Origin: a virus
Length of the DNA: 21,316 nucleotides
IMG/VR virus record: IMGVR_UViG_3300033816_000012
Span: 1 to 21,316 of that record
Strand: one strand, 5' to 3'
Position 1 is the first letter of the stretch; every line of letters starts with the position of its first letter. The notes under the pieces are model-generated. The model worked only from the letters and a program-made list of their open reading frames with translations. It ran no database searches and was not told the DNA's origin. The translations under genes were made by a program, and so were the position numbers. Positions 1,557 to 17,355 of this stretch are shown one piece after another.

Positions 1557-2162
1557 TTAAATTGTTGTAAAAGGTCCTGTATTACTTGAGCCATAAGCTA
1601 TTCTTAATGTACTGCCACTACCAAATCCATCAAATTTATCCAAAGTTACATTTACATTACTATATGCAGTTAAAGTTAAAACACCAGAATATAAAGGTGT
1701 ATTAGCTGCACTTGTAATTGTTTGACCAAATGAAGTGATAACTTTACCATTTAATACTATTGAATTTCCAGATATATATAATGCATCATTATTAAGAACT
1801 CCAACACCAACTCCTCCACTATTAAATGATAATATGTAGTAAATTGTAGCATTAGTTAAATTATATAAAACACCTGTTGTTGTACTTGATGGTCCTGTAA
1901 CAGGATATAAACCACTTGTTGTAACAAATTGTACATTATTGGCAGCCTCTAAATCGTTTTTAACAACTAATTCATTAGAAGCCTTATCAGCATAACTTGC
2001 TTTACTTGTGTTTATAAAAACATAGGCATCTGCTTCGTCTTTTGTAATACATTCGTCTGTTGCAGGAATACCACTTTTACCTACAAATATCCCAACAGAA
2101 ACTGCATTAAGTAAATTGTTACGTGTTACTGCTTGATTAGATGCTATACTTGCCCAACTCAT
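1557..2162 (-). CDS. 201-residue tail-tip or fibre-associated protein
   Basis: The first ~75 residues (MSWASIASNQAVTRNNLLNA, ECITKDEADAYVFIN, ASNELVVKNDL) form a compact module that I associate with Flavobacteriia phage tail proteins from memory, without a firm family name. The rest is Ser/Thr/Gly-rich beta sequence (GVGVGVLNNDALYISGN, VNVTLDKFDGFGSGST), like fibre shafts or receptor-binding tips. Its ATG overlaps the fibre gene's TGA as ATGA, so the two are probably translated together and may act in the same structure. A role in host recognition is plausible but not shown. Confidence 0.75.
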   Translation of the reverse strand: MSWASIASNQAVTRNNLLNAVSVGIFVGKSGIPATDECITKDEADAYVFINTSKASYADKASNELVVKNDLEAANNVQFVTTSGLYPVTGPSSTTTGVLYNLTNATIYYILSFNSGGVGVGVLNNDALYISGNSIVLNGKVITSFGQTITSAANTPLYSGVLTLTAYSNVNVTLDKFDGFGSGSTLRIAYGSSNTGPFTTI

Positions 2163-5100
2163 TTAATTAATGATTTAATAAGTTCTTCTAATTGTGCAAC
2201 CTTATCTTCTAAATAAGCAATCTTTGCAGTATGTACTTGACTATAAGATAATGTTAAGAATCCATCACTACCTTCCCCAACTGCACTTGGTAATATTTCT
2301 TGTAAGTCTTGTGCGTAGTAACCTAATTCTTGTTTACTATTTTTAACATACATCCTTGCGACAACATTTTCTATGCCTTTTGGTTGTTCGTAATCTTTAA
2401 CAAGAATCTTTAATCTACTATCCGATGTATCAAAGAATCCACCTGATGCGGTAACTGAACCTGCAAATAAAGCATCTGTACCTGTTAATTGACCTGTAAA
2501 TCTTCCTGTTCCGTTAACATCAAATGTATAACCTGCATCTGTGATTCTATTTATTCCTACGTTACCATTTGCAAATATTCTAATTCGTTCGGTAGCGTTT
2601 GTACCAAAAACTAATGGGTTATTTGAAATATTTTGTAATGTTACTATTTTAGAACTTGTTTTTAATTGCCCTGTATATTCAGAAGTATCTACGAAATCTA
2701 TTCTTGGCACACTTGCATTTGATGCAAATTCAATAGCCATACCTGCACCATTAGCAGTATTACCTATCGCAACTGCACCCCCACTATCATAAAGTAAAGA
2801 GTTACCAATAGAACTTGCACTACTCCATTTAGGAATATATCCTGTTGTACCGCTGCCTGTTACACCACTTCCTCCGCCACCTCCGATAGTAGTTCCATTG
2901 ATTTGGAATACTCCGTTAATGTTTACGTTTCCGTTAACTTGTAAAGCTCCACCACCACTTACACCTGTTGTAGTTCCTATTAATACGTTACCAGTAGAAC
3001 CTTTTATTATTAAACCCGCATCAACACCTCCATCTCTAAATATTGTAAAATCTTTTTTTGTAGTATTACCACTTGAATATAAAATAGCACTTGTACCATT
3101 ATGTGATAATATTGCTTGATTTGCAGCAGTACCATCAAATTGCATAGTTATATTTCCCCTTGCATCTACACTACTTGAGAATGTAGCTGCTCCTGTAGAA
3201 GCTAAAGTTAATCCACCTAGACTACCTTTATTTCTTAACATTAAACTTCTACCACTTGGATAATCTATAAAACCATTTGATGTTGATGGACTTAAAAATA
3301 AATCTAAAGTTTCAGCATTCGCACTATTTTTAATTGTAAAATCAAGAGTTCTCGTTGTACCATTAACATCTAACTTGTATCCTGCATCGGTAGTAGTGCC
3401 TATTAAGACATTACCACCCGAAGTTATACGAAGTCTCTCTCCTGAAGATGGAGCATAAAAAAAAGAAAAATCATCAGTTCCGTCAAGGTTTCTAACAAAC
3501 CATTTGTTTACTGAATTTTGTTGTATTGCAATATTAGTATTTAAACCACTTGCAGCATTTATAGTTAATGGAATACCGCTTGACATTGTAGTCGTTCCTA
3601 TACCTAATGAACCACTCGCATTTAACGTCATTGCTTGGGTAAATGATATAGCGTTACCTGCCGTTCCTGAAGGTGCGTTGTACCAATAATGAACTCCTGA
3701 ATCTTGTTGGTATCTTGTAGCAGCAGCAGTAGTTTTATAAATAAAGTTTGTATTATCAAAATATGCATTAGCACCAAGAATCATAATTGGTACTGTGCTT
3801 GAAGATAATGCCGTAAGATAAACACCATTAGACAATTCTAACGCTTTCCAAGAACTACCCCACGCACTCGGTGTAACTCCTAATCCTAAATTGCCTGAAG
3901 CGGATAAGGTCATTTTTGTACTTTGAGCTGCACCTGTTGCTCCATTGTCAAATGCTAATGCACCTCCATCTAAAGTTCTTATAACACCTATACCATTAGA
4001 ACCACTATTTCTTGCTAAAAATACATAAGGCTCTACATTTGATAACGTATAAGCGTTTAATGAAGTTCTTGAAGTAATATCACCACTTGCCGTAACTGAT
4101 GAACTAAATGTAGCAGCACCTGTGGATGCTATTGTAAGTCTATCTGTACTATTAGTTTGTAATTTAATTATACCTACTGTTCCTTTTGAATTTAAAGTTA
4201 AAACAGTTCCGTTTGTATTTGTATTTTCTGCAATAAGATTTGCATTATCTGTTCCATAATAATTTAGTGCAAATACATTACCACTAAACGTAGCACTTGT
4301 AGCTGCAATAGAAGATGAGAATGTAGCAGCACCTGCAAATTTATGCGTTCCTATTGTATAATAATTAAATTCACTTAATGTATTATCCCAATAAATAGAA
4401 CCTTTTGTAACATTTGCATTATTCCAATATAATTGAGTGTATTGTCCACTTGTTGCATTTAATATAACCATTGCATCTCCACTTGATGCTTTACTAAATC
4501 TACCTGTTCCACTTACATCAAGTTTGTATCCTGCATTAGTTGCTGCATTTCCAATAAGTATATTGCCATCTGAGAATATTCTCATTCTTTCAATAGCAGA
4601 AGTGTAAAACTGCATATCTAATGCTGAAGCTGTATATAAATATGGACCAGCATTATTAACCCCAAATAAACCAGCAGTAGTTAAATTTTGAACAATAACA
4701 AAAGCAGCCTCTGAACCACTATCATTGTTTAATACTCTTATTCCATTTGAACCAGTTTTAACAACATCCAATGTATATAATGGAGTTGCAGTACCGATAC
4801 CCAATCTATTGTTTGTATCATCCCAAAAGAAATTAGCGTTATCCTGTGCAATAGTTGAGCCATTGCTAAATAACACCGAGCCACTTGTTAAAGATGGTAG
4901 GTTATATTTATTGTTAAACGTAGTCCAATCGGTACTTGAAAGTAAACCATTTTGTGAACCACTTGCAGTAGCAATAGCTAATGTAATCGTACCACTTGTA
5001 GTGATAGGACTTGAACCAATAGTTACTCCACTTGTTGAAGAAGATAAACCAACTGAAGTTACAGTTCCTACATATTGGTCTGTATATTGTGGGATATTAA

Positions 5101-6634
5101 AAACCCCTGTTGTTGAGTTATAAGTTGCAGCACCGCTTGTACCTGTTGTGGTCAAGCTAATTGCTGCTCTTGCTAACGCATCCGTATATTGTGTTATTGT
5201 AGAACTAATAGCACCTGTTGTGTTATTATAATTAATACCTGCTCCTGCACTTAAACTTGTTAAAGTAATAAAGTTAGAACCATTAGTAATTTGATTGTTA
5301 TTAGTTGGAATCGTAATAACACCTGTTGTAGAATTATACGCACCGCTTCCTGCCGTAAATGACAATGCAGCACGAGCCAAAGCATCCGTATATTGAGTAA
5401 TCGTAGAAGCTATCGTAAACGAAGGATATGTGCCACTAATTGATATCCCAGCACCTTGTGTTAAACTAACAGTTTGGTCTGGAGCAGAGTTAGTAATTAC
5501 CCCTGTTGTATTGTTGTATGTTATTCCTGTACCTGCACTTAAAGATGTTAATGTTATATAAGCACTTGAATCTACCGAGCCATCTGCTTTTAAGAACTGA
5601 CTTGATGTACCTCCACTCTTTACTAAAGTAGTTGCGTTTAAAGTACCTATTATAGTTGCAGCGTTACCACTACCACTTGTTTTGTTTATATATAAACCTT
5701 CGCCATTACCACCTTTTGTTATGTTTAAAGCTATTCCACTACCACTTGAATGATTAATAGCAAAAGTATTACTACCTCCACTTGATGCAAAAGAACCTGT
5801 TGCACCTGTAATAACATCAGCCGTTAAATCAAATGTTCCCAAGTTTACGTTTGCGGTTGCACCTGTATATGGTACATAACCACTTAAATCCGTTGAATAA
5901 TTAGGAATATTTAAAGTGCTACCTATAAGAGTTGAAACACCAGAAGTACCTGTTGTTGTTAGTGTTATTGCGTTTTGCTTATTGTTAAAAGTTGTCCAAT
6001 CAGCATTATCTAAATATCCATCTACCGAAGCCGAAGCAGCAGGGATTGATAAATCTGGAGTTGTACCTCCGCTTGATAGTAATGGTGCAGTAGCCGTAAC
6101 AGATGTTACATAACCTGCTAAAGAAGGGAAGGTAGTTAATCCACCTGCTCCGTTAACGTATTGACCACTTGTTCCTGCAAATCCTATATTGATTGTTCCA
6201 GCCGTTGTAATCGGTGAACCTGTGATTGTTAAAGCATCTCCACTTTCGGTAACGGCTACCGAAGTTACTGTTCCATTTTGACCATTTGACTTTTGCCACG
6301 TACCAGAGCCGTAGAGTACCCAATCCCCAACCGCAAAGGTTACAGGACCAGCACCAAAGTTCACAGTTCCAGCTACATTACAAATGTACATATCCCCAGC
6401 ATCACCTGTTCCGTTTACTAAAGTTGGAGTATTTGTTGCAGCGTTCCAAGTACCTAAATAAGTTACTACACTTGAAGGTAATTGGCTAACTGGAACTTTA
6501 CCACCACTATCCAAAGTAGCCACCCCATTAGCAGCACCCAATGGAACTGAACTAACAATTCCACTTGTACCTGTTAATACTCCATCTAAATCCCTAACTT
6601 TTGCACCGCTTGATATTACTATTTGATTGCTCAT
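2159..6634 (-). CDS. Modular tail fibre (1491 aa) with C-terminal S74 self-cleaving chaperone
   Basis: The N-terminal ~120 residues (LDSGGKVPVSQLPSSVV, YLGTWNAATNTPTLVNGTGD, AVGDWVLYGSGTWQKS) are a domain common at the head end of phage fibres. A very long Ser/Thr/Gly/Asn-rich beta region follows, built from repeated modules: SADWTTFNNK-like units near residues 215 and 570, QYTDALARAA near 418 and 485, ATFSSS near 773, 842 and 1152, and a DAGYKLDVNGT-like unit near 700, 1086 and 1367. The last 88 residues start with SDSRLK (from residue 1404), the Ser/Lys dyad motif of the Peptidase_S74 intramolecular chaperone, and end in a coiled coil (YLEDKVAQLEELIKSLIK). By family knowledge this domain trimerises the fibre and then cuts itself off. 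The fibre should bind the host surface. It is the largest gene here. Confidence 0.93.
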   Translation of the reverse strand: MSNQIVISSGAKVRDLDGVLTGTSGIVSSVPLGAANGVATLDSGGKVPVSQLPSSVVTYLGTWNAATNTPTLVNGTGDAGDMYICNVAGTVNFGAGPVTFAVGDWVLYGSGTWQKSNGQNGTVTSVAVTESGDALTITGSPITTAGTINIGFAGTSGQYVNGAGGLTTFPSLAGYVTSVTATAPLLSSGGTTPDLSIPAASASVDGYLDNADWTTFNNKQNAITLTTTGTSGVSTLIGSTLNIPNYSTDLSGYVPYTGATANVNLGTFDLTADVITGATGSFASSGGSNTFAINHSSGSGIALNITKGGNGEGLYINKTSGSGNAATIIGTLNATTLVKSGGTSSQFLKADGSVDSSAYITLTSLSAGTGITYNNTTGVITNSAPDQTVSLTQGAGISISGTYPSFTIASTITQYTDALARAALSFTAGSGAYNSTTGVITIPTNNNQITNGSNFITLTSLSAGAGINYNNTTGAISSTITQYTDALARAAISLTTTGTSGAATYNSTTGVFNIPQYTDQYVGTVTSVGLSSSTSGVTIGSSPITTSGTITLAIATASGSQNGLLSSTDWTTFNNKYNLPSLTSGSVLFSNGSTIAQDNANFFWDDTNNRLGIGTATPLYTLDVVKTGSNGIRVLNNDSGSEAAFVIVQNLTTAGLFGVNNAGPYLYTASALDMQFYTSAIERMRIFSDGNILIGNAATNAGYKLDVSGTGRFSKASSGDAMVILNATSGQYTQLYWNNANVTKGSIYWDNTLSEFNYYTIGTHKFAGAATFSSSIAATSATFSGNVFALNYYGTDNANLIAENTNTNGTVLTLNSKGTVGIIKLQTNSTDRLTIASTGAATFSSSVTASGDITSRTSLNAYTLSNVEPYVFLARNSGSNGIGVIRTLDGGALAFDNGATGAAQSTKMTLSASGNLGLGVTPSAWGSSWKALELSNGVYLTALSSSTVPIMILGANAYFDNTNFIYKTTAAATRYQQDSGVHYWYNAPSGTAGNAISFTQAMTLNASGSLGIGTTTMSSGIPLTINAASGLNTNIAIQQNSVNKWFVRNLDGTDDFSFFYAPSSGERLRITSGGNVLIGTTTDAGYKLDVNGTTRTLDFTIKNSANAETLDLFLSPSTSNGFIDYPSGRSLMLRNKGSLGGLTLASTGAATFSSSVDARGNITMQFDGTAANQAILSHNGTSAILYSSGNTTKKDFTIFRDGGVDAGLIIKGSTGNVLIGTTTGVSGGGALQVNGNVNINGVFQINGTTIGGGGGSGVTGSGTTGYIPKWSSASSIGNSLLYDSGGAVAIGNTANGAGMAIEFASNASVPRIDFVDTSEYTGQLKTSSKIVTLQNISNNPLVFGTNATERIRIFANGNVGINRITDAGYTFDVNGTGRFTGQLTGTDALFAGSVTASGGFFDTSDSRLKILVKDYEQPKGIENVVARMYVKNSKQELGYYAQDLQEILPSAVGEGSDGFLTLSYSQVHTAKIAYLEDKVAQLEELIKSLIK
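2162..2425 (-). other. S74 intramolecular chaperone domain of the fibre
   Basis: This segment codes for the last 88 residues of the fibre, beginning at the conserved SDSRLK. In characterised members (endosialidase-type fibres) the Ser and the Lys five residues later form the self-cleavage dyad, and both are present. GYYAQDLQEILP and the terminal heptad-like helix match the family. Cleavage at the conserved Ser would leave a mature fibre of about 1403-1404 residues. Confidence 0.85.
2500..6030 (-). repeat. Internal module repeats of the fibre gene
   Basis: Several coding modules recur in diverged form. A Tyr-Lys-Leu-Asp-Val unit lies near 2515-2545, 3360-3390 and 4505-4540. An Ala-Thr-Phe-Ser-Ser-Ser unit lies near 3175, 4105 and 4315. 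A Trp-Thr-Thr-Phe-Asn-Asn-Lys unit lies near 4915-4935 and 5980-6000. An Asp-Ala-Leu-Ala-Arg-Ala-Ala unit lies near 5160-5200 and 5370-5400. The copies differ at many third positions, so the duplications are old or under selection, and recombination could shorten or lengthen the shaft. Confidence 0.75.
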
Positions 6635-6644
6635 CTTTATTATT

Positions 6645-7340
6645 TTATTGTAGTAAAGCCCTTACAAATTCACCACTTACCAATGCTCTGCTAAATGTTA
6701 AAATACCAGTTGCAGAAACAAATTTAACTTCTTCATCAATTGGAGTACCTGTTGCAATAATACCTTGCACATCAATACCACCTCTTGAAACGTAAAGACA
6801 ATTGTAACCAATTGTGTCAGTCCAAGTAATTGAAGTTTCTCCACCAGCTGCCGTGTAACCTTTTGTCTTAACTGGGTTTGCACCTACTATGATAACTCCT
6901 TCTGGGTCTACGCTTGTTCCTGTTATATTGTATGCTCCTGTACCTTGTAGGCTTACATTATAAGTAGCCACATCCCTAACAGGAGCATTTATTGCTAAAC
7001 TTGATATATTACAAGTTCCAGCTATAACTACTAATCCATCAACTCCATTATCTACTACGAACTTAATTTCTATTGGCTCTCTTGCTAACTGTTTATCTAA
7101 CATAAACAAATATGAAAATCCACTTAAAATAATTAACCCATCACAGGTTACACTCCAAGTAGCGACATCGTTCTTATATTCTCTAAACCAAGCTGAAGAA
7201 TAAGATGTTACCTCTTTTTGATCTACGTTTACATTAAACGAACAACTTGTACTACAAGCAAAAGCGACATCAACCTCTGGGTCAACATCTGTTCTATGCC
7301 AATAAAGCATTACATTTTTTCCGTTTACTGCGTTTGCCAT
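6645..7340 (-). CDS. Second tail-tube-like protein (231 aa) in the tail-tip region
   Basis: The sequence follows the layout of TP901-1-type major tail proteins: an N-terminal CSFNVNVDQKEVTSYSSAW segment, the tube motif WSVTCDGLIIL near residues 58-68, a variable middle, then GTCNISSLAINAPVRDVATY and SLQGTGAYNITG. The same landmarks occur in the 149-residue tube protein at 11865-12314 (ECEGFAID, FISNFGVNAADKDDVKFTA). About 75 extra C-terminal residues (from about DPEGVIIVGANP) form a beta module that could project from the tube. It lies after the tip protein and before the fibre, so it may form a distal tube ring or adaptor holding the fibre. The tube-fold assignment is by eye. An alternative is an Ig-like decorated baseplate protein. 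Confidence 0.65.
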   Translation of the reverse strand: MANAVNGKNVMLYWHRTDVDPEVDVAFACSTSCSFNVNVDQKEVTSYSSAWFREYKNDVATWSVTCDGLIILSGFSYLFMLDKQLAREPIEIKFVVDNGVDGLVVIAGTCNISSLAINAPVRDVATYNVSLQGTGAYNITGTSVDPEGVIIVGANPVKTKGYTAAGGETSITWTDTIGYNCLYVSRGGIDVQGIIATGTPIDEEVKFVSATGILTFSRALVSGEFVRALLQ

Positions 7341-7362: not shown

Positions 7363-9339
7363 TTACTGTATATTATATTTTATTGTTTCAACGGAATCAT
7401 TATCCACGTTTGTTATTTCTATAAGCTGAAAAGAATCTACTTCATCAATTTGTGGGATAACGCTACCTCTATTTAACATAAAAGTTTTATCATCATAAGA
7501 AAGTGCATTAGTTGACAAATCTTGTACCGAATAAACTTTGTCTAAATAGTTTAATCCTTTATCAGTTTTAAACTTTCCTAAATCTGCTTCTAAAGTACCA
7601 AAGTTCTTATTTAATAGGTTAGAATATTGTCTAGCTATAAGCATTGGTAATAACTCAAAAACATTAGTTGTATCTGGATAACGATACCAATTTTGATAAG
7701 ATATGCCATCAGCATCTACTAAATTTCCTACGTTATTATTAACTGCAAAGCTATTTAAGAAACTTCCATAAGGTTGATCTATTTCTTTAATTGTAGTATT
7801 TTCTGTTCCTACTTGTCTAGTTACATCTACTGAACGAATTGTTGTAAAGTTTTGAGTTATAGAAACACTTCTAATACTTATTGATTCATATTGTGGGAAT
7901 GGAGTTCCACCATCTACTAAAAACCTTAATTTAACGTGTCCTTTAACTGATGCACCACTTGGAGTATTTTGTGTATTTATTAAAACCTTTAATGAATAAT
8001 CAGTATAATTTCCTTCATCTACTTTATTAATATCTACAAAAGTATATGCAGTTTGCCAAGCATTTGAACTATTATAATAATAAGTAATAGATGTGGCTGG
8101 ATTTGTAATTGTTATAATAAGTTTTGCTTTATTACCAGAAACACCAATTCTATATGCAAATTTTATGTCAAAACTTGGTCCATTCATATATGGTAAATAC
8201 ATATAAGGATTTGAAGGAGGAACAACTTGTTGCATTTCTACATAAGAAGAAGTGCCTACCCCAATAGGTTTTTGAATGCTTAATGTATTAGAAGATAGTT
8301 CATCATCTATTGTTAAATTTACATAAATTTGACTAGGAGTGCCACTTGTAAATAAATCCCATCCATAAGGGAAAGGATAAAATGATGGAGGAGTATCTCT
8401 ATTATAATATCCTTTAAAATTGCCATTGTGAACATAGTTATCTGCATATCTAAAATCTCCTTTTACAATTATTTTAGGATAACCTTTTCTAACTATTTTA
8501 TTTTGAGCATTATTTACAAAATGAACATTACCTTCTTGGTATGGCTCAATAGTTATATTTTTATCAATTGTACCACTACCTGCATTACTTACAGTTGGAT
8601 AAATAACATAATTAGTAAAATATCTTGTAGATAAAGCCATTTGATTAATAGCTAATATTTGCCATTTACCATCGCTTTGAAATAATCTGCATCCAAAAGA
8701 TTTAACAATATTATCTAAAACCTCGTAATAATTTAATCCTACAAAATCCCTTCTATATTGGTAAGTTTGTGAAAATGGTTCATCTCCAGAAGCATCTCCT
8801 CTATCAAACATACCTTCTGCATAATAAGAACAAGAAGTAAGTAATTCAATAGGGTCTGGATAATTAATAATGTTTAATGTCTCTGCAATTACATCAATAA
8901 GCCTATTAGTTTCATTTATACTTAAACCTTCTTCATAAATGAAATCCGTATATTCTAAAAATGATAACCCATCAATAGCTACTAAATCAACTTGAAGATT
9001 ACCTGTTGTAAAAGGAATTTGAACATAATCATTAAATAAAAATCCACACCATAAAAGACTGTCTCCATTATATAACTTAACAAAATATTTACGAATATCA
9101 AAACTCAATATACTAGGAAAATCTTCGCCATCTTCTTCTGTTGTTAAAAAAGATATATTTAATTGTGATGAAATAATACCAGCTAAAGGTTCATCATTAC
9201 TAGCATTAGACTCTAAACTAATATTAATAGCATCATAACTTTTTACTGAAAGAGTATAATCCTTTTCGTAAATTCTAGCTATTAAGCTACTTCCATCTCT
9301 TAAGACTTGTGTTATTGTGTATCTTTGTCCGTATGGCAT
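7363..9339 (-). CDS. Tail-tip / baseplate hub-like protein (658 aa)
   Basis: The gene directly follows the tape measure (the TAA and ATG share one base), where siphoviruses code for distal tail and hub proteins. The N-terminal ~150 residues read as beta sequence of the distal-tail/hub type (SSQLNISFLTTEEDGEDFP, KYFVKLYNGDSLLWCGFLF, DLVAIDGLSFLEY). The next part (NYYEVLDNIVKSFGCRLFQSD, then GKWQILAIN) matches the insertion domain seen in gp27-like hubs: a helix followed by a read-out strand pair. The middle (~330-490) resembles a carbohydrate-binding-like beta sandwich. No peptidoglycan hydrolase motif is visible. The hub role is inferred from order and fold pattern, not from a named family. 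Confidence 0.75.
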   Translation of the reverse strand: MPYGQRYTITQVLRDGSSLIARIYEKDYTLSVKSYDAINISLESNASNDEPLAGIISSQLNISFLTTEEDGEDFPSILSFDIRKYFVKLYNGDSLLWCGFLFNDYVQIPFTTGNLQVDLVAIDGLSFLEYTDFIYEEGLSINETNRLIDVIAETLNIINYPDPIELLTSCSYYAEGMFDRGDASGDEPFSQTYQYRRDFVGLNYYEVLDNIVKSFGCRLFQSDGKWQILAINQMALSTRYFTNYVIYPTVSNAGSGTIDKNITIEPYQEGNVHFVNNAQNKIVRKGYPKIIVKGDFRYADNYVHNGNFKGYYNRDTPPSFYPFPYGWDLFTSGTPSQIYVNLTIDDELSSNTLSIQKPIGVGTSSYVEMQQVVPPSNPYMYLPYMNGPSFDIKFAYRIGVSGNKAKLIITITNPATSITYYYNSSNAWQTAYTFVDINKVDEGNYTDYSLKVLINTQNTPSGASVKGHVKLRFLVDGGTPFPQYESISIRSVSITQNFTTIRSVDVTRQVGTENTTIKEIDQPYGSFLNSFAVNNNVGNLVDADGISYQNWYRYPDTTNVFELLPMLIARQYSNLLNKNFGTLEADLGKFKTDKGLNYLDKVYSVQDLSTNALSYDDKTFMLNRGSVIPQIDEVDSFQLIEITNVDNDSVETIKYNIQ

Positions 9340-11179: not shown

Positions 11180-11500
11180 TTAGTTTACTCCGTACAATTT
11201 AAGTGTCCTTGCCAATTGTTCTTGTGTTATCATCACTCTATCTTCATCAATATCAGCTTGATCTAACTCTGGTATGCTCCAAAAAGCCTTCATTGATTTT
11301 GGTGTTTTCTCGGTAGTAGAACTTAAATATACAATATAGGCAAGGTTTCTTGTCCTTGCCCATTCGTTTAACTCGTTTCTTTCCTTACCTAAAACGATAA
11401 TGGAAAAGTCCTTCCAAGTCATATCCCAAAATTCATTTGGTCTTATTCCGCACTCCGCAGCTTTAACTAAGATATCATCCCAGCTTAGCTTTGTTAGGCT
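11180..11500 (-). CDS. Tail assembly chaperone, downstream (T-like) part reached by frameshift
   Basis: The open frame runs from the A10 run at 11500 to the TAA at 11180, coding 106 residues that begin SLTKLSWDDILVKAAECGIR. An ATG at 11422 exists inside it (EFWDMTW), but the upstream part is already protein-like: a W-D-D-I-L, AAE-G-I-P-N-E-FW pattern, as in phage tail chaperone extensions. I therefore take this as the second half of a fusion with the 124-residue protein at 11475-11849, in the same way as lambda G-GT. The fusion would be 222 residues for a +1 shift or 223 for a -2 shift. The T part recruits tail tube subunits onto the tape measure. Independent initiation at 11422 remains possible. 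Confidence 0.75.
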   Translation of the reverse strand, partial: SLTKLSWDDILVKAAECGIRPNEFWDMTWKDFSIIVLGKERNELNEWARTRNLAYIVYLSSTTEKTPKSMKAFWSIPELDQADIDEDRVMITQEQLARTLKLYGVN

Positions 11501-11849
11501 TTTTTTTTTCTTCTTCCTTCTTTACACCTGTAATGGTGTGGACTGTATTTTCAACGATATATTTTAAATAGTCAATTATTTGACCTTCTTCGCTAAAAAT
11601 AGAACCCACTTCATCAATCCATTCACAAGCATCATCAATGGTATATATTACTTCATCTTTCTTGCTTACACAAGCAGATTTGTAACCAATGTAAACAAGC
11701 TGGACTATAATGTCTAAACTTGTTTGAGCCGTTGCAAGAACTTTGAAGTACTCATCAATACCGATATTGTTTTGTTTAGTAAACTCACGCATTGACCAAG
11801 TACCCCATTTTAGGTGGATTGTGTTGTTGTTAGTTTTTAATTGGAACAT
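11475..11849 (-). CDS. Tail assembly chaperone, upstream (G-like) protein
   Basis: The 124-residue protein starts MFQLKTNNNTIHLKWGTWSM and is mainly helical (REFTKQNNIGIDEYFKVLAT, DEVIYTIDDACEWIDEVGSI). It ends in a charged Lys/Glu tail (KKEEEKKKPNKAKLG) encoded by the slippery A run. It lies between the tail tube and tape measure genes, the fixed position of the G chaperone in siphoviruses. The unshifted product binds the tape measure during tail assembly, and the shifted product carries the T extension. The A10 run falls eight codons before its stop. The assignment rests on position, size and the frameshift. Confidence 0.8.
   Translation of the reverse strand: MFQLKTNNNTIHLKWGTWSMREFTKQNNIGIDEYFKVLATAQTSLDIIVQLVYIGYKSACVSKKDEVIYTIDDACEWIDEVGSIFSEEGQIIDYLKYIVENTVHTITGVKKEEEKKKPNKAKLG
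11500..11509 (-). other. A10 slippery run: programmed +1/-2 frameshift site in the tail chaperone
   Basis: The message reads GAAGAAAAAAAAAAGCCT, with ten consecutive A. In the zero frame this gives Glu-Lys-Lys-Lys-Pro and the protein stops 11 codons after that Pro codon region, at 11475. In the +1 (equal to -2) frame it joins the 106-residue downstream open frame. The -1 frame hits TAA two codons after the run, so the classical lambda-type -1 shift is excluded. Ribosomal slippage or RNA-polymerase slippage on the homopolymer would both serve. Confidence 0.75.
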
Positions 11850-12325: not shown

Positions 12326-12733
12326 TTAATTTTGAGTTATGGTTATATTATATGTTATTAATACTCTAAAAACGTTATCTAAAGGATTTAAGCCATCCAA
12401 ATTCCTAATGCTTTCTACACTTAAACTTGAAGCAGTAAACCCATTTGATAAGGTTATAACTGAATCCGAGTTTATATCTTCTAATATCAAATCGCTTATA
12501 TCTTCAGCACGTTTATAACCAAAGTTAGCATTTTTTGTAATAATATCAACTGTGATGCTAATACTATTTGTGTAACCTGTTTTACCTTGTTCTTGGCTTG
12601 ATGTCCTTCCTGTCATTACAATATACTCATTACCTGCACCTTCTGGAGCAAAACCATCATAAACAACCAATCCACTTGCGCTTGTCAAGTTAGTATAAAA
12701 CCACTTTTTTATTTCTATATTAGGATTTAACAT
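12326..12733 (-). CDS. Tail completion / tail terminator protein (DUF3168-like)
   Basis: The 135-residue protein runs from a helix (MLNPNIEIKKWFYTNLTSAS) into beta strands (NEYIVMTGRTSSQEQGKT, NSISITVDIITK), then a helix (KRAEDISDLILEDINSDS) and a terminal strand pair (NVFRVLITYNITI). This is the usual fold order of the gp17/DUF3168 tail terminator family, which caps the tail tube at its head-proximal end. Its start overlaps the gp10-like gene by 14 bases, and it is followed by the tail tube gene after an 11-base A/T spacer. Confidence 0.8.
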   Translation of the reverse strand: MLNPNIEIKKWFYTNLTSASGLVVYDGFAPEGAGNEYIVMTGRTSSQEQGKTGYTNSISITVDIITKNANFGYKRAEDISDLILEDINSDSVITLSNGFTASSLSVESIRNLDGLNPLDNVFRVLITYNITITQN

Positions 12734-16118: not shown

Positions 16119-16984
16119 TCTCTTATTAAATTAGAAATTTGCATCAAAGCCACGTTATTTATCAAATTCCAAACTAATCCCATATCACCTCTTGGCGGAT
16201 TGTCTTGTAACCTTTTTGGCTTTCCATCTTCGCCTCTAACGGCTTCATAGCCTAACGTACAACGGCAGTTGATAACATCACCAGCACTTCCGCTTGGGTC
16301 GCAAGGATGTAACATTTGCTCAAAACCGCCATTCTTAGTTTTAACATTAAATTTTTCATCGTAAGGTACTTTTATTCCATCCATATGATAATGGTCAAAC
16401 TGATCTCGTGGCACTCGCCTTGTTCGGTTATCCCTCGCTGCTATCCATTCCTTCATAGTTACAAGTCCAGTTGCAGCCGTGCCTACCATAGAGCCAATGT
16501 TTGCTGCCCTTCCTGTTTCCGTTCTTGCTATCATCTCGGCTCGGTAGTCCGTTATACCAGCCGTTCTCAATAGCTTGATTGTTTCTTGCATTGTCAAACC
16601 TTCCTCAACAGACTTTATCAAGTATTGTTGAATTTGGTTCTTTGTTGTTTGTGTTATTTCGGCAGCTATATTATCTAATCCTTTTAATTCAAGATAAGTC
16701 AACATCACATAGGTAAACAAGTCCGTTTGCTTACTTTTAAATTCCTCTGGTCCGTAATAACCTTTAACCGATTTAGAAACGTTCTTCTCGGCAATTTGTG
16801 CCATCTTAACGCCCATTGCAATATGAACGTTTTGGATGGTCTTTTTTATCTTCTTATCGCTTATAGCGTTTAAATCTTGGGTATCGCAATATGTATCCAC
16901 TTGCCTTTGTAGTTCTTTCTTGAACTTAGGTGAGTAGGTTTTTATTGCGTTTAAATATAGTTTTCTATAATCTTGCCAAATCAT
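16103..16984 (-). CDS. MuF-like minor head (head morphogenesis) protein
   Basis: 293 residues. The N-terminal half is helical. The C-terminal MuF domain shows IARTETGRAANIG (from about residue 152), KEWIAARDNRTRR, HYHMDGIKVPYDEKF and the closing INCRC (about 238-242), all family hallmarks. Such proteins sit inside the head near the portal and may be ejected with the DNA. No toxin domain is attached: the protein ends about 50 residues after the Cys motif. Its start overlaps the 124-residue gene's stop by ATGA, and it lies two genes after the portal as usual. Confidence 0.92.
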   Translation of the reverse strand: MIWQDYRKLYLNAIKTYSPKFKKELQRQVDTYCDTQDLNAISDKKIKKTIQNVHIAMGVKMAQIAEKNVSKSVKGYYGPEEFKSKQTDLFTYVMLTYLELKGLDNIAAEITQTTKNQIQQYLIKSVEEGLTMQETIKLLRTAGITDYRAEMIARTETGRAANIGSMVGTAATGLVTMKEWIAARDNRTRRVPRDQFDHYHMDGIKVPYDEKFNVKTKNGGFEQMLHPCDPSGSAGDVINCRCTLGYEAVRGEDGKPKRLQDNPPRGDMGLVWNLINNVALMQISNLIRDLLAD

Positions 16985-17355
16985 TTGTTAGGATTGTATG
17001 CCCAATTCTTTAAGGAAATATCCCTCTTAGATGGACACTCTTTGTTTACAGGTTTACCTTGCTCCATATTTTTCATTCTACTAACAAAGCTAATGGTTCT
17101 GTTTGCAGACTTAACTTCATTTGCACCCCAATCAGCTTTTTTCTTACTCAATAGATTTAAGTTCCTATTTACTGGACTTCTATCTAATGATGCTAAACGT
17201 GAGCATTTAGTTTCACTCCAAGCCTTTAACTCGGAATAAGACATATTTACTGTTTCGTGATACTTTGCGTAAACTTCATCAATAACTTCTTGAAGGTCGG
17301 CTTTTAGGTCAACCTTTAAATCAAATAACTTGTCTATGATCTCTTGACTATTCAT
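16981..17355 (-). CDS. Small conserved-looking protein between portal and MuF genes
   Basis: 124 residues. The first 40 are an acidic amphipathic helix pair (EIIDKLFDLKVDLKADLQEV). A Ser/Arg/Asn-rich basic region follows (CSRLASLDRSPVNRNLNLLS), and the C-terminus ends in KECPSKRDISLKNWAYNPNK. I have an impression of having seen this ending in other phage proteins of this position but cannot name the family. It overlaps the portal gene by eight bases and the MuF gene by four, so it is almost certainly expressed with them. A portal- or head-associated role is inferred from position only. Confidence 0.75.
   Translation of the reverse strand: MNSQEIIDKLFDLKVDLKADLQEVIDEVYAKYHETVNMSYSELKAWSETKCSRLASLDRSPVNRNLNLLSKKKADWGANEVKSANRTISFVSRMKNMEQGKPVNKECPSKRDISLKNWAYNPNK

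Follow-up and report, generated by a model that had tools for sequence, protein, structure and literature searches.

The window analyzed here, the whole stretch of DNA under study, is a 21,316-base virus sequence and a fragment of a genome. Its structural genes lie on the minus strand: terminase, portal, capsid, connectors, tail terminator, a main tail-tube protein (B), chaperone frames, tape measure, central hub, a second tail-tube-family protein (A), and a tail fibre (Table 1). The first three are genes that we take to be the terminase, portal and capsid. The fibre ORF has no Pfam match at 0.01, and its label is therefore a putative one. A ten-A run at 11500-11509 joins the two chaperone frames (11180-11849, minus strand) and resembles G/GT-type programmed frameshifting; the frames in the window would need a +1 or -2 shift. 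The hub gave a confident AlphaFold2 (AF2) model (pLDDT 79.1, pTM 0.83), of which about 300 residues align structurally with hubs of the gp27, Mu gp44, and VgrG type (Z 14-17).

Table 1. Tail genes and sub-gene features of the window, with coordinates, strand, and the basis for each assignment.
Feature	Coordinates	Strand	Basis
A, second tail-tube-family protein, 231 aa, proposed distal adaptor ring	6645..7340	-	PF06199, phrog_1407, and 8qhs sequence match
Tube domain, A residues 1-146	6903..7340	-	PHROG match over 1-147; fold hints from low-confidence model
Beta module, proposed fibre-docking, A residues 147-231	6648..6902	-	TSP4 XD3 likeness; tracks fibre class
B, main tail-tube protein, 149 aa	11865..12314	-	phrog_1407 (4.3e-15); usual tube slot
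Central hub, 658 aa, gp27/Mu gp44/VgrG type	7363..9339	-	AF2 model and structural matches
Inserted jelly roll, hub residues 299-499, CBM-like	7843..8445	-	Z 12-13 to tailspike/CBM jelly rolls
Tape measure protein, 611 aa	9339..11174	-	phrog_1535 (9.2e-07) and phrog_34082 (1.9e-4), tail length tape measure
Putative tail fibre, 1491 aa, directly after A	2159..6634	-	Place in the gene order; repetitive, fibre-like sequence
Fibre residues 1-20, conserved N-terminal motif, class N (MSNQ...)	6575..6634	-	Sequence; conservation among relatives
Putative tail assembly chaperone, first part (G-like)	11475..11849	-	Between tube and tape measure
Putative tail assembly chaperone, second part (T-like), probably via frameshift	11180..11422	-	Frame open back to A-run 11500-11509
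Tail terminator	12326..12733	-	phrog_176 (2e-09)

On sequence evidence, the first ~146 residues of A belong to the tail-tube family. A passes the Pfam model PF06199, "Phage tail tube protein" (26.9-27.4 bits against a cut-off of 23.8), matches phrog_1407, "major tail protein" (6.9e-18, residues 1-147), and finds the solved monocin tail tube chain 8qhs_A at 5.2e-5, or at 1.7e-9 using the A1 profile; it scores under the cut-off of NCBIfam TIGR02126. B likewise matches phrog_1407, with 13.7 bits against PF06199, under the cut-off, and has no match of note among PDB sequences. The first-pass annotation, made from the DNA letters, had proposed two tube-family proteins on either side of the tape measure and hub, and this now has support in that both proteins match phrog_1407; A did not turn out to belong to an unrelated family, being a member of PF06199 and phrog_1407. 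Among the top viral-library matches of A are entries of 225, 132, and 294 aa annotated as "Phage major tail protein TP901-1" (47, 41, and 55% identity) and an unnamed 651-aa protein (28% identity), lengths that suggest varied C-terminal ends among its close relatives.

The landmarks from which that proposal started are indeed present in the same order in the 231-aa and 149-aa proteins: CDGLII at residue 66 and then ISSLAINAPVRD at 112 in A, and CEGFAI at residue 63 and then ISNFGVNAADKD at 117 in B. Both patterns together occurred in 0 of 200,000 shuffles of A, a test that is unfair because the patterns had been derived from A and B themselves. BLASTP of A against B gave nothing useful (best E 3.5). 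Profile-profile comparison of the A family with the B family gave a probability of 93-96% over 125-134 columns, with scores of 50-62 and both landmarks aligned; column-shuffled controls reached a maximum of 21.5 (n=100). Without the rows of phage 11b and locus L158 in either family, the score was 16.5 and not significant, so the A-B link is a remote one that is carried by bridging family members. The AF2 model of A is of low confidence (mean pLDDT 47.6). Its order of strands and helices (b-b-b-b-a-b-b-b) is compatible with a tube and tail tubes top its Foldseek PDB list, with tube chains at Z 4.8-6.5, below the matches of the C-terminal module; since the model is weak, its structural matches carry little weight alone.

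To see how widely the two-tube layout occurs, relatives were drawn from viral contigs, with five of the scans taking the best 80 loci each. Tube ORFs were called by scoring every ORF in these loci against a profile built from 14 tube proteins, and loci identical over 300 bases around the last tube gene were merged. The window lineage comprises at least 162 distinct sites, with both tube genes in at least 83 (window included) and one in 79. None of these 79 sites has more than 6.5 kb on both sides of the tube ORF, and they include fragments of contigs whose other part is counted elsewhere (e.g., L122, L168); thus, they are no evidence of single-copy phages. Other lineages contribute at least 67 sites, of which 43 carry two tube genes, two carry three, and 22 carry one. 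More than 6.5 kb is present on both sides in four of these 22 (phi12:1, phi39:1, GBK2, and MT835917), and the only tube gene in their fetched parts occupies the main slot, like B. As a candidate second tube in phi12:1, gp59 was rejected, having no tube-family match. Searches of genome contigs with the A1 and A2 profiles yielded no relatives, nor did a viral-contig search with the gut-phage tube as query.

The arrangement itself is regular. At least 83 window-lineage sites share the order tube, chaperones, tape measure, hub, second tube, and exactly two ORFs of more than 400 aa lie between the first and last tube gene at 127 of 128 multi-tube sites among the matches listed; the exception, L270, is a record starting after the tape measure. 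In the window-lineage records examined, the second copy follows the hub and precedes the fibre (or an inserted ORF and then the fibre), the position that the first-pass annotation had correctly given for A. Two cultured phages share the layout, 11b (gp36, gp44) and phi10:1 (gp084, gp089); the notes on gp084 and gp089 in the phi10:1 record rest on sequence similarity only. Our literature search, which reached few subscription papers, found no paper on this layout in Bacteroidota phages; the phrase "two major tail proteins" occurs in genome announcements for phages of Gordonia cluster DJ and of Microbacterium cluster EL. Separately, the 43.8-kb contig IMGVR_UViG_3300042502_000051 (L016, L070, L108) contains two different tube-to-A blocks and is perhaps two joined genomes.

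Gene order also bears on which of the two proteins builds the tube. The main tube slot (terminator, tube, chaperones, tape measure) is occupied by B and not by A, which comes after the hub; therefore, we regard A as a tube-family protein and not as the major tail protein. The reverse assignment, with A as the real main tube protein and B as something else such as a proximal ring, could appeal to several observations: A is above and B below the PF06199 cut-off, the B counterpart in phage 11b (gp36) has no Pfam match, and the best phage-collection match of A is the single main tube protein of MT835917. Also, for phage 11b RefSeq gives the name "major tail protein" to gp44, its second copy, and "hypothetical" to the main-slot gp36 (L155:23337-23849 and 16903-17343). 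However, B lies between terminator and chaperones, where the sole tube gene sits in the fetched parts of the four one-tube phages named above, and phi10:1 gp084, another B counterpart, passes PF06199 at 54.9 bits. From the gene order, we hold the reverse assignment to be highly improbable. The main copy of phi10:1 bears the correct name in its record, and phage 11b illustrates how naming by family only can place "major tail protein" on the wrong gene.

We compared conservation across 41 loci with all core genes, a set that was not dereplicated, as median percent identity to the window. Slowest to change are the terminator at 93.3 (39 loci), B at 88.6, and the A tube part at 86.7. The A module stands at 72.9, the two hub parts at 55.5 and 36.1, the chaperones at 42.6 and 50.8, and the tape measure at 34.4; hub and tape measure are thus much more variable than the tube proteins. 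The slow change of the A tube part, near the pace of the ring proteins, fits a ring that would contact B and is not proof alone. In an 82-row tree, the 11b-type second copies (36 rows) cluster together, along with two unassigned rows (99/94), separate from the main copies, and window A falls beside the single main tubes of the gut phage and two Geobacillus/Paenibacillus phages (88/90, unstarred, long branches). A tree holding window A together with the other second copies was 20.9 lnL worse (p-AU 0.034), a marginal rejection, across long branches, of a common origin for window A and the 11b-type second copies. We lean toward two separate recruitments of a second tube copy, as the tree would have it.

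After residue ~147, A continues into a separate portion, which the first-pass annotation had described as an added C-terminal part. In the window lineage, this 85-aa beta module is present on 210 of 213 A-type ORFs (overlapping loci counted), and the other three are truncated by contig ends. Searched by itself, the module has no phage match, no PHROG, and no Pfam match, and it was never found apart from the tube domain (phmmer, E 1e-5, 254 collected sequences). Within the AF2 model of A, it is better predicted than the remainder, with pLDDT block means of 50-81 from residue 161. Residues 156-231 match CBA120 TSP4 265-332 (Z 8.0, rmsd 1.8, 65 aa, 15% identity), at the edge of the trusted range of the tool; TSP4 187-249 is matched at Z 6.7 and 13% identity from the same modest model, and further proteins of phage necks, tails, and baseplates follow in the structural ranking. 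TSP4 265-332 is XD3, and PMC8825819 describes XD2/XD3 domains as attachment points for trimeric spikes, fibres, or other tail proteins: those of TSP4 bind TSP2 and TSP1, and those of T4 gp10 bind gp11 and gp12. The A module resembles these domains in predicted fold and in its proposed docking role; unlike the module, they sit in baseplate or tailspike proteins and not in a tube protein.

The type of the module follows that of the fibre. At its N-terminus, the product of the gene after A belongs to one of two main classes, N (MSNQ) or Q (MSQ). From 206 A ORFs, 188 were complete with a next ORF, and 115 remained after identical A proteins were merged; 109 of these are of class N (26) or Q (83). 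The nearest neighbor by module (residues 156-231) agreed in fibre class for 109 of 109 records, and by tube domain for 93 of 109, scores that are inflated by the near-copies remaining in the set. For the other genes, the same-class share was 72/88 (hub), 39/56 (B), 40/52 (terminator), 29/38 (tape measure), and 49/63 and 56/70 (chaperones), near the 74-81% obtained by always guessing the larger class. Identity within and between fibre classes was 91.1 and 65.9% for the module, and 89.6 and 82.7% for the tube domain. All 17 class-separating columns of A lie in residues 165-226, and the within-between gap in 15-residue windows was 2.6-13.4 points up to residue 150 and 20.9-31.6 beyond. It climbs over some 30 residues within about 121-165 (4.8, 13.4, 20.9, 21.4, and 26.7 points in successive windows). 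Whole-protein gaps were 3.1 for the terminator, 2.3 for B, 7.2 and 4.2 for the chaperones, 4.7 for the tape measure, and 2.8 for the hub. On the fibre side, residues 1-20 are 83% conserved within class N and 93% within class Q; the fibre body falls to 31% from residue 181 in class N, and in class Q holds at 67-77% over residues 61-260 and then 37%. Altogether, these sequence comparisons show that the last ~85 residues of A are a module in their own right, and that the type of this module agrees with the N-terminal class of the fibre that follows.

Such a match could also arise from genetic linkage only, adjacent DNA being exchanged jointly, which is compatible with A as a ring. The module (~255 nt) lies immediately before the fibre start and the class signal climbs gradually and not at a single point, so linkage could explain the match partly or wholly; this rise, spread across some 30 residues and not a single step, also leaves us slightly less confident in the ring-docking reading. 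However, the rise coincides with the domain boundary, after which the gap stays on its plateau, and there are no mismatches among the 109 records despite 10 fibre-class changes on a quick tree of the tube part (one on that of the module). Six set-aside records carry an inserted ORF before the fibre, and module and fibre class agree in all five with a readable fibre, where the intervening ORF is of 156-193 aa. A plateau that begins at the domain boundary, together with zero mismatches, leads us to favor a physical fit between module and fibre, and linkage as the sole cause seems to us rather unlikely. The inserted ORFs (L014:10697-11167, L107:15829-16356, L223:3749-4288, L227:7411-7992, and L250:677-1240) are HNH/homing-endonuclease-like by look.

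Outside the window lineage, most second copies extend just 13-37 residues beyond the tube domain; thus, docking by a C-terminal module would not be general. Others carry longer extensions. L273:9998-11728 encodes 576 aa with a tube domain and DUF285 repeats (3.7e-60; PKD at 2e-4 is below the cut-off), and no fibre-sized same-strand ORF lies in the 4.8 kb downstream, beyond which the contig continues. Because of this gap, we suggest that the ring protein of this one record may itself act as an adhesin or receptor-binding ring. In L270:2294-3343 (349 aa), L287:8933-9979, and L290:8933-9979 (348 aa), the tube domain is followed by two thrombospondin type 1 (TSP1) domains (Pfam, ~1e-26), and these copies precede a plain 168-aa second tube copy. 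The second copy of L317 has 500 aa and only a hint of CBM_6 (0.074). The tube parts of L273, L287, and L290 are under the PF06199 cut-off and that of L270 has no PF06199 match; all four match phrog_1407 at 1e-22 or better.

Extensions of this kind raise the possibility that A is a decoration, inserted in the tube shaft now and then, with a C-terminal module that acts as a host-surface adhesin and docks no fibre. According to PMC6669499, some phage tails bear tube proteins along their length that end in Ig-like or CBM extensions, and extended major tail proteins include the SPP1 frameshift product and TpeX of the 936 group. Like these, A is a tube domain plus a C-terminal extension; the DUF285 and TSP1 modules on second copies of some relatives would suit a decoration, as would an A tube part almost as conserved as B. 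However, the SPP1 and 936 extended forms arise by frameshifting on the main tube gene and are distributed along the tail, whereas A is a separate gene after the hub and not a frameshifted extension of B. Its module also tracks the fibre N-terminus, which a free adhesin would not need, and in fold the module comes closest to a docking domain, TSP4 XD3. We consider the decoration unlikely.

In other siphophages, the ring with a peripheral docking part between tube and hub is Dit (PF05709, Sipho_tail), and the proposed A ring would be like it in both place and tube-like form. PF05709 has no match anywhere in the window at E <= 1, and none in A or the hub (Pfam). By this profile, the one test made, A is not a Dit; since the window is fragmentary and a single Dit model was used, a Dit could be elsewhere or too diverged. 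By analogy, A likely works like a Dit. Its gene differs in place, following the hub, whereas in GBK2 Dit comes directly after the tape measure.

The nearest precedent is found in ceduoviruses. There, PMC12474359 predicts a Dit-less tip with a VgrG-like trimer (L14) and an Hcp-like ring, L15/L16 in c2 and ORF35/ORF36 in bIL67, and A fits that plan by comparison. Like them, the window has a gp27/VgrG-like hub gene adjoining the ring-protein gene and no PF05709 match, with the ceduovirus adjacency judged from the numbers L14-L16. In the predictions that the source presents, tube-like ring proteins with extra binding modules lie between the major tail protein (MTP) ring and the VgrG-like hub. The ceduovirus ring is modelled as a hetero-hexamer of two ring proteins; unlike it, the window has one second-copy gene, and it is perhaps L270, L287, and L290 that share two different ring proteins. 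The ceduovirus tube fold is known from predicted structures of a ring with CBM modules, whereas A is a sequence-level member of the tube family, and A differs from those rings in that its module is XD3-like and is matched to a fibre encoded separately.

Contractile systems, too, offer a parallel for an additional tube-fold protein alongside the main one. Afp5 is the ring nearest the baseplate. As described in PMC12961389, Afp1, Afp5, and Afp7 form the central tube of a contractile injection system. A resembles Afp5-type paralogues in standing beside a main tube protein; unlike A, Afp5 belongs to a contractile system, with no fibre-matched docking module implied.

The reading we favor, with modest confidence, sees in A a tail-tube protein that was co-opted to form a distal adaptor ring, which docks the fibre and replaces Dit. 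The tube domains of A would form one ring, probably of six copies, between the last B ring and the gp27/VgrG-like hub, and this ring would take over the role of Dit in other siphophages. Its C-terminal modules would face outward and grip the fibres by their N-termini; in some relatives, modules of the adhesion type (DUF285, TSP1) may take their place on the second copy, and an extra ring protein may have been added in L270, L287, and L290. The first-pass annotation had suggested a specialised distal ring or a tube-derived fibre adaptor. This is partly supported: family, position, and module-fibre matching are shown by sequence, and ring formation and docking are the steps that we infer; the idea gains indirect support from the conserved order, the absence of a PF05709 match, the gp27/VgrG-like hub, the varied extensions, the spike-docking-like module, and the matching of module to fibre.

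Extended to Bacteroidota siphophages at large, a more tentative picture emerges, which we offer as a possibility short of our preferred reading of A: the tube family may have been recruited, perhaps repeatedly, as a Dit-replacing plug-in ring, whose tube part would keep its fit to the tube, with the module swapped together with the fibre start or for others such as DUF285 or TSP1. If so, a tube fold would have been converted into a docking platform, and fibre types could be traded without changing hub or tube. This would give a testable account of Dit-less fibre attachment and swapping in widespread phages, whose named relatives infect Flavobacterium and Cellulophaga.
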